DNA of 64,000 nucleotides from Acidobacteriota bacterium (lineage in GTDB: Bacteria; Acidobacteriota; Blastocatellia; Pyrinomonadales; Pyrinomonadaceae): NCBI GenBank assembly GCA_003222895.1, contig QHXI01000056.1:62001-126000 (forward strand), read 5' to 3'. Positions 31,845 through 35,917 of the stretch are shown one piece after another; the first letter of the stretch is position 1, and each line of letters starts with the position of its first letter. Under the pieces are notes generated by a model that was given only the letters and a program-made list of their open reading frames with translations, had not been told where the DNA came from and did no database searches. Position numbers and translations under genes: made by a program.

Positions 31845-32999
31845 TTATCGCGCAAAATTTCCGATCGGTCCGTCGGGTTTGATGATATCTCTCAATACCG
31901 AATACGGAACTAAAACGTTCTGCGGCCCGGCAGCGTAAGCTGCCACTTGATAAGGATCGAAAGTGATCCACAAGCCTTTCTTCGTAATCGCCCACGCGCG
32001 ATAGTTATCAGCGTGCGGCCCGGCGCCGGTCTCGAGCTGATCAGCAAGGATCATTGAGTCTTCTTTCTTTGCTCGCTCTTTCAATTCTTTGATGCAGTAA
32101 TCAGAAATTGTTTTCAGGTAATTAGACTTCGGATTGAACAGATCGCCGAGCGTTAGCTTCTTTCCATTCTTCACATCGTAATTCAGCGCCACGGTCATGG
32201 AGTTTCCATGCGCCGCGCCCCGTGAATAACTGCCTTCGCCGAACTCGAGACTGATCAAATCGTCGGTCGCATACCGAAAATCGTATCCGGCATTAAGAGT
32301 CGATGTCTGCGTCTCAGCCGGCAGCTCGCTCGCTTCGTCTCCCTCCTGAGAATTCTCAGCCGTTTTGAAAGCGGCAACGTCTTTCGTAATCATTGCGCGC
32401 GCTTCGCGATTGAAACCATCGAACCGCGAGTCGCCGTCGATCTGCGGAAATTCTGCCTCGATCGTATACAGCTTCTCTTTGTTGTTCTCCTTAATGACTT
32501 TTGGCACGACCCGGATCGGCGCGCTGAACTCGAGCGGCTGCTGCGTCACCACGAAATCCGTCGATTTCGATCCGTCAGGTTTCGACCATTTGCCTTGGAT
32601 CTCGACTAAGCTCGGATCGGGAGAGTCTTTCGCCGCTTGCCACTTCCCTTTGAAGAGCCCGGTTTGTTTGCCCGTTTCATCCGACTCAGTCAGTTGCGCG
32701 TTGCCGTCGTTGTCGACTGTTCCCGCCAGCGCGATGTCCTTGCCGACCCTTGGGTAAAGATAATTTCCAGTGAGATGATCGCCGTCGCGCACCAGAATCA
32801 TTTCGATCGAGAGACTGTTGTTGATGCTCCCGCGGAAGAAAAACTTCTGCCCGGTTTGCGCCGCGCCGCCGCCCACCGGCACATCCGCAGATGGAGAAGA
32901 ATTGCTCGCAGTAGACTGCTTGACGATTTGTTTGCGACAAGCTCCGGCAATTAGTAGGCCTGCAATTATGAATAGACCAATCTTGAATTTGATGTTCAT
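31845..32999 (-). CDS. Lipoprotein with DUF4163/DUF3298 (RsiV-like) domains
   Basis: Predicted lipoprotein of 384 residues: signal segment and lipobox AGAC (Cys near 21), a Gln/Ser linker, an N-terminal beta-rich domain (GNYLYPRVGKDIALAGTV), then DUF4163-like and DUF3298-like parts (SYSRGAAHGNSMTVALNYDV, LTLGDLF, WITFDPYQVAAYAAGPQNV). The latter pair forms the lysozyme-sensing portion in Bacillus RsiV; here it lacks an anti-sigma region, so it is probably a plain envelope protein. Its start overlaps the stop of the CYTH gene by four bases (ATGA), indicating coupling. Confidence 0.8.
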   Translation of the reverse strand: MNIKFKIGLFIIAGLLIAGACRKQIVKQSTASNSSPSADVPVGGGAAQTGQKFFFRGSINNSLSIEMILVRDGDHLTGNYLYPRVGKDIALAGTVDNDGNAQLTESDETGKQTGLFKGKWQAAKDSPDPSLVEIQGKWSKPDGSKSTDFVVTQQPLEFSAPIRVVPKVIKENNKEKLYTIEAEFPQIDGDSRFDGFNREARAMITKDVAAFKTAENSQEGDEASELPAETQTSTLNAGYDFRYATDDLISLEFGEGSYSRGAAHGNSMTVALNYDVKNGKKLTLGDLFNPKSNYLKTISDYCIKELKERAKKEDSMILADQLETGAGPHADNYRAWAITKKGLWITFDPYQVAAYAAGPQNVLVPYSVLRDIIKPDGPIGNFAR

Positions 33000-33592
33000 G
33001 ATTTTCGTGCAGCGTTTGCGTTCAGTAATCCGCTTCTCGTAATTTCGTTTCTTACCTCTTCAATGTTGAGTTCGCTCAATCGCCCGCCAGTAAATACTTC
33101 ATTGTTCGTAACATCGGCGATAGCAAAAGGGGGCGCGGGAAAATTGTCCAGCTCGTCGTCGTTGTCGAAACTCGTTTCCGCCAAGACCAAACCAAACAGA
33201 TCGCCAATAAACATATCGACCGCGAACTCGCGCCCTTCGAATTCGAACTTGTAGCGGTTCTTGCGAATCTCGTTCGCTTCGAATATCGAAAGCGTCTCTG
33301 CCTCAATCGCACTTAGATAAGTGTTGGTAATGATCGTGCGCGACAAGTCATCTGGATTCGGCGCGAACTTCTGTGTGAATTTCACGATCCATTTGTTGGT
33401 CTGTGGATCGCGCACCTTGCGAATGCGCAGTCGCGTTCCCGTGATGTAGTTGTCGGTAATTTGCAGATGATGAGCGGCGCGCGACAAACCTTCGGGCAAA
33501 TCATGCAAGAGATAGCGCCGCTCGCGCTCGACGCGTGCGTACTTGCTCTCGGGCACAATGGTGTTGAAATCAGTTAGTTTAGCAACTCCCAT
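32996..33592 (-). CDS. CYTH-domain protein
   Basis: Predicted cytosolic protein of 198 residues with the tunnel-fold signature near the start (ARVERERRYLLHDL, corresponding to E-x-E-R) and RLRIRKVRD with the basic tunnel residues. CYTH enzymes hydrolyse triphosphates or cyclise ATP; which of these applies is unknown. The C-terminal part (DNFPAPPFAIADVT) resembles adenylate-cyclase-like members. It starts 88 bases from the divergent Fic gene, and the operator between them may serve both genes. Confidence 0.75.
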   Translation of the reverse strand: MGVAKLTDFNTIVPESKYARVERERRYLLHDLPEGLSRAAHHLQITDNYITGTRLRIRKVRDPQTNKWIVKFTQKFAPNPDDLSRTIITNTYLSAIEAETLSIFEANEIRKNRYKFEFEGREFAVDMFIGDLFGLVLAETSFDNDDELDNFPAPPFAIADVTNNEVFTGGRLSELNIEEVRNEITRSGLLNANAARKS

Positions 33593-33599
33593 GTCTGGA

Positions 33600-33670
33600 A
33601 CTTTACATAGCCCGTGTGCTTATGTAAAGTTAACGCGCTAACTTTACATATTGAGATTCATATGTAAACT
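33600..33670. promoter_or_regulatory. Four-half-site operator upstream of the Fic gene
   Basis: Half-sites ACTTTACATA (33600), TATGTAAAGT (33621), ACTTTACATA (33641) and TATGTAAACT (33661) alternate in orientation. Their starts are 20 to 21 bases apart, so all face one side of the helix. The middle pair forms a 30-base palindrome (33621-33650) with a CGCG centre. The segment lies between the divergent CYTH and Fic genes. Confidence 0.8.
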
Positions 33671-33680
33671 TGCATTCACT

Positions 33681-34856
33681 ATGAAGCTACCACCTTTCAA
33701 AGCGGGAACGTACAAACAACAATATCAATACAAAAGCTTCATGCCAACTCTGATCAATCAGCAATTTTATTGGAGTGACCCTACCATCGATGTACTGTTG
33801 GAGGACGCAACACGTCTGCTTGGAGAACTAAACGCCTACTCGCATCTAGTGCCGGACGTTGACTTCTTCATCAGGATGCACGTGTTCAAGGAAGCCACAA
33901 CTTCAAGCCGTATAGAAGGAACCCAAACCAAGATTGAGGAGGCGGTATTACCTGAGGAAGAAATTGAGCCGGAGAGACGGGACGATTGGTTAGAAGTACA
34001 GAATTACACTAGCTCAATGAACCACGCTATCGATGCTTTAGACAAGCTGCCACTCTCGATGAGATTGCTTCGAGATGCCCATAAGATTCTAATGTCAGCA
34101 GCGCGAGGCGAACATCGCAATCCTGGCCAGATACGTCGAAGTCAAAACTGGATCGGTGGCTCAAGCCTGAAGGACGCCGTTTTTATTCCGCCCTCGCATC
34201 AGGAACTACCAGAACTCATTAGTGATTTGGAAAAGTTTTGGCACAACGAAAAATTAGCAATTCCACACTTAATTAGAATTGCAATCAGTCACTACCAGTT
34301 CGAGACAATCCATCCGTTTCTTGATGGGAACGGTCGAATTGGCCGGTTGCTAATAACTTTCTATCTAGTGGACAAACAACTGCTCACAAAGCCTACACTC
34401 TACCTCTCTGAGTTTTTTGAGCGCAATAGAGGCGCGTACTACGATGCTCTCACAGTAGTACGAACATCGAATGACATAGAGCATTGGATCAAATTCTTTC
34501 TTTCGGGAGTTTCCGAGACTGCCGCCAACAGCAAGCAAACATTCGAAAAAATCATAGAATTACGCAGAACGTGCGAGGAACGGATTCTTGAGTTAGGAAA
34601 ACGAGCGGCCAAAGCACAAGAACTACTACGGCGTTTGTATTCACAACCAGTCCTGAGCGCTAATCAAGTTGCGGAAAAATTGAAGATTACCCATCAATCA
34701 GCCAGCTCTCTGATCCGGGCATTCGAAGCGCAAGACATCCTAAGAGAAATTACGGGACGCAAGAAGCACCGGCTATTTGTTTTTTCCAAATATCTTAATC
34801 TATTCACGACTCACGTTTCCCGTCAGACGCTCCGACCTCCCAAGAGAAATAAGTGA
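33681..34856 (+). CDS. Fic/DOC family protein with C-terminal winged helix
   Basis: Predicted AMP- or other nucleotidyl-transferase of 391 residues. The Fic motif [12 protein letters not shown] is at 211-222. An N-terminal self-inhibitory helix motif, S-x-x-x-E-G (SSRIEG, 75-80), should block it until released. [20 protein letters not shown] near 335-355 is a winged-helix DNA-binding part, so it probably represses its own promoter through the operator just upstream. Base composition is clearly more AT-rich than the neighbours, suggesting acquisition by transfer. The ATG start is after the operator; an earlier TTG lies inside it. Confidence 0.87.
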
Positions 34857-34870
34857 AGCAATACGGATGA

Positions 34871-35917
34871 TTATTTCGTCACAACCGTCCCCATCTTCAC
34901 AACTTCGAAATTCGATCCTTTGATTGTTTTCAGCATTCCCAAATCGTCGTCGCTCCATCTTGGATCCGGCGCGCCGCTCAGAAACCAATTCGAGCCGTTG
35001 TCAGCGACAAACATTCCGTACTTCTTCAAAGCACGCAGGATAACCTGGTTCGATTGAGAGAATGTCGAGATATCGAACGACGCTTTCAAGCGCACGCGCA
35101 TGCCCATCGGCGGCAAGTTCGGATTGTCGCTCTCGCCCGCGTGGTGGCGCGCTGGAAAAATGTAACCGCGCCGGCTGTGCTGGATCGTGAACCGCAGCGC
35201 ATGTCTGATCTCGCGCTGTTCAAAAACTTCATCATATCGAACCAGTCCGGGAAAAATCGGCAAACCCGCGGCGTCAGTCGAGGTCCAACCATCAGGCCGC
35301 GTCGCATTCGATTTCAGGTCGAACGCGGCGCCGCTCTTCGCATTCCAACTTCCGTTGTTCTGTGGGTATGCGCCGAACATTTCATATAGTTTCCAGTTGT
35401 CGCGATCAATTACCAGCACATGACGATCCCCGTCTGAGTTAGGACCCCCTTCGATCGGCGCGTTGCGCGGAACTGGGTATGGGCCAGGATCGCTTTCGCT
35501 TCCATACGCAGTGAAGTTGATCGGAACGCGCGGCTGGGACCCGGAGACTACGATGTAAGGAATTCCATTCGGCGCGCCGCGATAAACCGTGCCAAAATCA
35601 GGATGCAGCCCGGCATCGACGCCGATACTTGCGATCAATCGAGCCGAGTTCGGATCGACCGGAGCATTTGAGATTTCCTGATTCCACGGATTGTCGGGCG
35701 GAAAAACTTTCGTCCCGTGAAGACTCGCGCCCGAACCGAGACCAGGCAGCAGCGCCGGCTTTGGTGTCACCACGCGAGGCCGAGTGGTAAGCGGTGTTTG
35801 AACTGCCACCGCCGTCATGAAATTCCCCGACCGATCGCTGGCGTTGCTTCCGGATAATTCGAAAGGGATCAGTGCCAGGAATGCAGTCAAAGCGATTAAG
35901 ATGATTCGCGTGTTCAT
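34871..35917 (-). CDS. Secreted hypothetical protein
   Basis: Protein of 348 residues with a signal peptide (IILIALTAFLALIPFELSGS) and a Pro/Gly-rich body with FPPDNPWNQEISNAPVDPNS and GDRHVLVIDRDNWKLYEMF. The phrase RHALRFTIQHSRRGYIFPARH is probably in the core. I recognise the type from soil bacterial genomes but not a function. Convergent with the Fic gene, 14 bases away. Confidence 0.65.
   Translation of the reverse strand: MNTRIILIALTAFLALIPFELSGSNASDRSGNFMTAVAVQTPLTTRPRVVTPKPALLPGLGSGASLHGTKVFPPDNPWNQEISNAPVDPNSARLIASIGVDAGLHPDFGTVYRGAPNGIPYIVVSGSQPRVPINFTAYGSESDPGPYPVPRNAPIEGGPNSDGDRHVLVIDRDNWKLYEMFGAYPQNNGSWNAKSGAAFDLKSNATRPDGWTSTDAAGLPIFPGLVRYDEVFEQREIRHALRFTIQHSRRGYIFPARHHAGESDNPNLPPMGMRVRLKASFDISTFSQSNQVILRALKKYGMFVADNGSNWFLSGAPDPRWSDDDLGMLKTIKGSNFEVVKMGTVVTK

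Follow-up and report, generated by a model that had tools for sequence, protein, structure and literature searches.

The fic gene of the window (the whole 64,000-nucleotide stretch of DNA analysed here) is preceded by an array of four alternating half-sites which very probably constitutes its operator, bound by the C-terminal winged helix of the Fic protein itself and serving autorepression by Fic dimers. The evidence is computational: the sites themselves, a lattice conserved among homologues, co-variation of the half-site letters with the recognition helix, and overlap with promoter-like sites. The features concerned are the following (window positions):

32996-33592, minus strand: divergent gene, CYTH-like by a weak match (E 2e-4) to 2fbl and 3typ
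33593-34870, no strand: segment missing from the sister genome G006 by comparison with it (array, fic and about 14 bp)
33600-33609, minus strand: half-site 1, TATGTAAAGT, exact match (forward-strand letters ACTTTACATA)
33621-33630, plus strand: half-site 2, TATGTAAAGT, exact match
33641-33650, minus strand: half-site 3, TATGTAAAGT, exact match (forward-strand letters ACTTTACATA)
33661-33670, plus strand: half-site 4, TATGTAAACT, one mismatch
33621-33650, no strand: central convergent pair, a 30-bp inverted repeat
33602-33630, plus strand: promoter-like TTTACA-17-TAAAGT toward fic, on half-sites 1 and 2 (consensus match only)
33643-33670, plus strand: promoter-like TTTACA-16-TAAACT toward fic, on half-sites 3 and 4 (consensus match only)
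33600-33628, minus strand: promoter-like TTTACA-17-TAAAGT toward the CYTH-like gene (consensus match only)
33668-33641, minus strand: second promoter-like match toward the CYTH-like gene (consensus match only)
33681-34856, plus strand: Fic protein of 391 aa, Fic_N + Fic + HTH_13, SoFic-like, class II (domain profiles, alignment, AlphaFold2 model)
34659-34781, plus strand: winged helix-turn-helix, residues 327-367 (Pfam HTH_13, AlphaFold2 model)
34692-34730, plus strand: recognition helix, residues 338-350 (model), with Q339, the most half-site-informative column, at 34695-34697

The original prediction placed four half-sites of alternating orientation at 33600, 33621, 33641 and 33661, and this was borne out by sequence match: the 10-bp half-sites follow each other in steps of 21, 20 and 20 bp over 71 bp, and all four fall within the 88 bases that separate the CYTH-like gene from the fic ATG at 33681. 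The central pair, described there as a near-perfect palindrome of 30 bases, is paired at 28 of its 30 positions. The claim that all sites lie on one face of the helix was approximately right, except that 20 bp correspond to 1.9 turns and not to two full ones, so that each site is rotated by about 34 degrees relative to the one before.

In the whole genome (4,774,423 bases) the exact 10-mer TATGTAAAGT is present in three copies, every one in the fic array. When the window was divided into 710 overlapping pieces of 180 bases and each was scored for alternating arrays, the two pieces lying on the array came out on top (10.5 and 7.5), the next one reaching 4.0, and none of 200 dinucleotide shuffles of the fic upstream region matched the array score. 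Across 396 genomes of the phylum, the pattern TATGTAAAGTTA-N-TAACTTTACATA was found in the window copy only; the exact operator would be this rare if its letters changed along with the helix. Upstream of another, distant Fic gene in this genome (L155, G000:C82:86759-87832) there is likewise an inverted repeat with a 20-bp step and half-sites TACTTTACAC and TGCTTTACAC (1/200 shuffles). On the other strand these have the core TGTAAAG in common with the window sites, so that cross-talk is conceivable.

Fic_N and Fic were matched by Pfam at E 7e-23 and 3e-18, respectively. The Fic motif HxFx[D/E]GNGRxxR is intact (residues 211-222), with nearly all positions invariant in the homologue alignment. 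On the N-terminal side of the Fic core, the inhibitory motif of class II proteins, (S/T)xxxE(G/N), reads S75-S-R-I-E79-G80, where S75, E79 and G80 are invariant among the aligned homologues. The winged helix proposed for the C-terminus was recovered by an HTH_13 match (E 8e-8) and by the AlphaFold2 model (mean pLDDT 86.8), in which helix 2 spans residues 327-334, the recognition helix spans 338-350 and residues 355-367 form a beta wing. The PADLOC SoFic profile covers residues 13-376 (E 1.7e-118), and the nearest solved structures include SoFic (3zcn and 3eqx) and Mycobacterium marinum Fic (7cb8). The NCBIfam SoFic equivalog profile NF046030 gave 178.8 bits, under its 550-bit cut-off, which makes the protein a relative of SoFic and not a strict equivalog. 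By its domains and profiles it is of the SoFic anti-phage defence type, with a predicted role in defence by AMPylation. Homologues align from ATG 33681, most likely the start of fic, which would place all four sites 5′ of the coding sequence. A longer reading frame starting at TTG 33651, which would include site 4, was dropped, as homologues begin at the equivalent of 33681.

The divergent gene matched no Pfam family at E≤1e-3, and its CYTH-like label comes only from the weak match to 2fbl and 3typ, which we take to be CYTH proteins. Its start codon is located 7 bp from site 1. In the stretch scanned, the promoter-like matches for fic and for this gene are all inside the array. They are parts of half-sites, however, and the TTTACA/TAAAGT matches of the window may be a coincidence of the half-site sequence; the promoter phase conserved in homologues yields only poor hexamers in the window. 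Where homologues have a clear sigma-70 promoter (TTGACA-17-TAAAAT type), the -35 element abuts a half-site located inside the 17-bp spacer and the -10 element overlaps the next half-site. Of 20 consensus-like placements, 8 have the -10 element at one fixed phase, starting 2.5 bp beyond a convergent centre. With a promoter at either placement, the promoter region would lie beneath protein bound to the array.

We examined homologous genes, 80 of them fetched from many phyla and others added from viral contigs and from the phylum of the window. An alternating array was present upstream in 52/114 at no more than 1/200 shuffles, where about one was expected, and in 46/114 at 0/200 shuffles (the window and 45 homologues). 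Upstream inverted repeats were in excess where their centre distance was an even number from 16 to 26 bp, with a peak at 18 bp (0.36 of loci versus 0.01-0.03 in shuffles), and in many homologues the palindrome centres sit on an exact 20-bp lattice, as in L013 (-92.5, -72.5, -52.5, -32.5 and -12.5). The preferred step was 20 bp, for the alternating organisation only: a score of at least 4 was obtained for 39.5% of loci and 0% of shuffles. The same score was reached by 1.0% of 2116 control pieces from the same loci (2.7% of AT-rich ones), a control which is conservative since the pieces still contain the downstream arrays found later. A direct-repeat organisation (0-2% of loci, two steps excepted) was dropped. 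Arrays most commonly comprise four sites (21/45), and fic is inside an operon in 1/37 loci with an upstream array versus 13/37 without.

The autoregulation idea had been staked on conserved sites upstream of close homologues; such sites are present, and the idea survived. TATGTAAAG sites precede the genes of L004 (68% identical) and L122 (63%, same GTDB family), and at the nearest homologue, L085 (73%), the layout is the same, with TATTCAAAGT as the site and Y for H at residue 338 of the recognition helix. Among distant relatives of 38-43% identity (Synechocystis, Thermus, Phyllobacterium, Picosynechococcus), arrays were absent or weak, and no clear array was seen at four distant homologues borne on plasmids.

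Half-sites of homologues have a TA(T) start in common, while the letters after it vary. To compare them, half-sites were oriented with TA first and loci lacking TA were left out (48/56 kept). Among 284 variable protein columns, the one sharing most mutual information with the half-site was Q339, the second residue of the helix (z 11.8, next column 6.5), and it also came first in two subsets (11.6 versus 5.6 and 9.8 versus 6.0). A partial Mantel comparison of helix and site, controlling for the Fic domain and the remaining HTH, gave r=0.30 for 47 non-redundant homologues (0/5000 permutations, numbers that are not strict probabilities because the homologues are related), whereas for the same homologues similarity of the Fic domain was uninformative (-0.015). 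Specific pairings were apparent: K339 with TATTTTACTT, N339 after F/Y with TATTTCA, the F/Y-Q helix with TATTCAAAGT, the H-Q-[ST]-A helix with TATGTAAA and the K-Q helix with TAGTCAA. On the Fic-domain tree, K339 with TATTTTACTT is found on separate branches (the L042 group, L049 and L041) and N339 with TATTTCA on distant ones. This co-variation indicates that the sites are bound by the Fic protein itself, and lends support across homologues to the direct autoregulation originally proposed.

Loci first taken as exceptions, free of arrays upstream, turned out on scanning elsewhere to carry arrays just 3′ of fic. The array is upstream only in 44 of 108 loci, downstream only in 21, on both sides in 3 and on neither in 29, the remainder being borderline. 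Out-of-sample prediction of the downstream half-sites from the nearest helix of the upstream set recovered 7.12/10 letters versus 6.01 when permuted (0/5000), and prediction from the nearest Fic domain 5.88/10. In particular, L020, L021, L022 and L069, with the helix [TS]HQTAS, have TGTAAA sites, as predicted from the window helix THQSAS. L012 (2025-2114) has the helix THQTANHLI, of the HQ type near that of the window, yet its downstream array is TATAAAATT; residue 342 (N versus S) may be involved. The loci with arrays on both sides are L059, L055 and L026, and in L026 the upstream array may be not an operator but a hairpin resembling a terminator.

Some operon-embedded fic loci without an upstream array carry restriction-modification genes. 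An array lies between fic and hsdR, immediately 5′ of hsdR, in L022 (1307-1377), L028 (2648-2719) and L032 (2628-2678), which suggests, for some Fic proteins, a role in controlling the restriction subunit encoded by the adjacent type I system.

The comparison with sister genomes bears on the history of the locus. No close homologue of the window fic was found in six other genomes of the genus (limit 1e-60). In G006, which lacks the segment 33593-34870, the gene at 34871-35917 and the CYTH-like gene abut (TAATG), and in the sister genome G001 a DUF6883 and DUF4926 pair occupies the spot of the window fic (L132 861-1442). The spot beside the CYTH-like gene thus appears to be a hotspot which takes up small accessory genes. 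As judged from these sequences, the array and fic behave as a single cassette. With the cassette between it and the gene formerly upstream of it, the CYTH-like gene may now rely on promoters of the array.

A mechanism can be proposed by reference to CccR of Yersinia pseudotuberculosis, a Fic-HTH protein which represses its own promoter via two inverted 10-bp sites, as shown by footprint and a lacZ fusion, and for which the dimer is required; it forms an N-terminal dimer with recognition helices 70.2 Å apart (PMC9755527). Each subunit of a dimer of the window Fic would read one 10-bp half-site. Adjacent half-sites are 20-21 bp (about 68-71 Å) apart, near the CccR distance, so that a dimer could bridge them, with up to two dimers along one side of the array. 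One or two dimers, pairing half-sites in a convergent or divergent manner and possibly binding cooperatively, would then be responsible for autorepression. Since the array overlaps the fic promoter region, binding would be expected to repress fic and not to activate it, and the level of a potentially toxic AMP-transferase would be kept low and self-limited. Leaky expression of wild-type SoFic appears to be toxic, a reason for tight self-control (PMC12249575). The divergent CYTH-like gene, with its start codon so close to site 1, would probably be repressed too.

Another host transcription factor might bind these sites and regulate both fic and the CYTH-like gene, as many winged-helix regulators bind inverted repeats of such size (general knowledge). 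We consider this very unlikely: the half-site tracks the Fic recognition helix across phyla while the Fic domain tells nothing about it, the 10-mer is absent elsewhere in the genome so that no other regulon member is seen, and the array belongs to the fic-bearing segment absent from G006. Chance or an AT-rich repeat artefact is hardly credible. AT-rich intergenic DNA does give weak palindromes, as the AT-rich controls illustrate, but this explanation was already refuted by the shuffles (0/200 for the window and 45 homologues), the fixed 20-bp lattice and the co-variation of helix and site.

The array could instead act mainly as a cis-tether or allosteric DNA cofactor which alters AMP-transferase or deAMPylase activity, control of transcription being secondary. 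DNA stimulates (de)AMPylation by CbFic2 (PMC10628234), the toxicity of EcSofic is controlled by its C-terminal domain (PMC12249575), and the array is just 3′ of fic in the 21 downstream-only loci, and in several of them no obvious gene follows it in the same direction. Given the CbFic2 result and these downstream arrays, which simple autorepression leaves unexplained, the array may have a role in enzyme activity. As the main function it is nevertheless unlikely, since the commonest layout has the array over the promoter, often at a fixed phase, and since autorepression was demonstrated for CccR whereas CbFic2 was assayed with random DNA only. Autorepression by Fic dimers is the reading that we retain for the window.

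PMC12249575 does not settle how toxic enzymes of the SoFic type are kept quiet before a phage attacks, and neither that paper nor PMC10628234 identifies the DNA sequence read by their winged helix. A predicted operator is now available for many such proteins, the helix-to-site code is testable through single substitutions, and the arrays next to hsdR (L022, L028, L032) provide a possible link from Fic proteins to the control of restriction genes. As a tentative generalisation, SoFic-type Fic proteins across phyla might form one family of self-addressed DNA-binding enzymes, with an array of alternating half-sites on a 20-bp lattice immediately before or after the gene, read by the protein's own recognition helix through a code residing mainly in residues 338-339, and a chain of dimers through which the state of the AMP-transferase is linked to control of the gene and, in some loci, of an adjacent restriction gene.

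CccR already provides a known case of a Fic-HTH protein that regulates its own gene. In the literature searched, which held few subscription papers or preprints, we found no description of the alternating 20-bp lattice, its spread over phyla, the helix-site code or the downstream arrays preceding hsdR, and the lattice, its spread, the code and the downstream variant appear undescribed. CccR resembles the window Fic in combining a Fic domain with a C-terminal HTH and in having inverted half-sites in its own promoter region. It differs in that its two half-sites are separated by a 26-bp spacer (a step of 36 bp), compared to four on an alternating lattice of 20-21 bp in the window. CccR is in addition a secreted T6SS effector, and it shares only 29% identity with SO_4266 over 45% of the latter, which is in turn distant from the window Fic.

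SoFic and EcSofic, single-gene anti-phage Fic proteins (3eqx, 3zcn; PMC12249575), share the Fic_N-Fic-wHTH order and the class II inhibitory motif, and 3zcn and 3eqx are among the best full-length structural relatives of the window Fic. Identity is nevertheless about 27%, and the 14 bp after fic in the window are too little for an AS1-like small gene directly downstream. DNA binding was not demonstrated for SoFic, according to PMC10628234. CbFic2 of Coxiella burnetii is likewise a class II Fic protein of related fold (8cil) with a C-terminal wHTH, through which it binds DNA; in contrast to the window, no operator is known for CbFic2, which was tested on random DNA and studied for histone AMPylation (PMC10628234). 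Finally, Phd-Doc and other toxin-antitoxin operators also involve a Fic-fold toxin autoregulated via operator repeats (general knowledge; PMC13034048). In those systems DNA is bound by a separate antitoxin, whereas in the window the toxin-like enzyme and the predicted DNA reader are a single chain.
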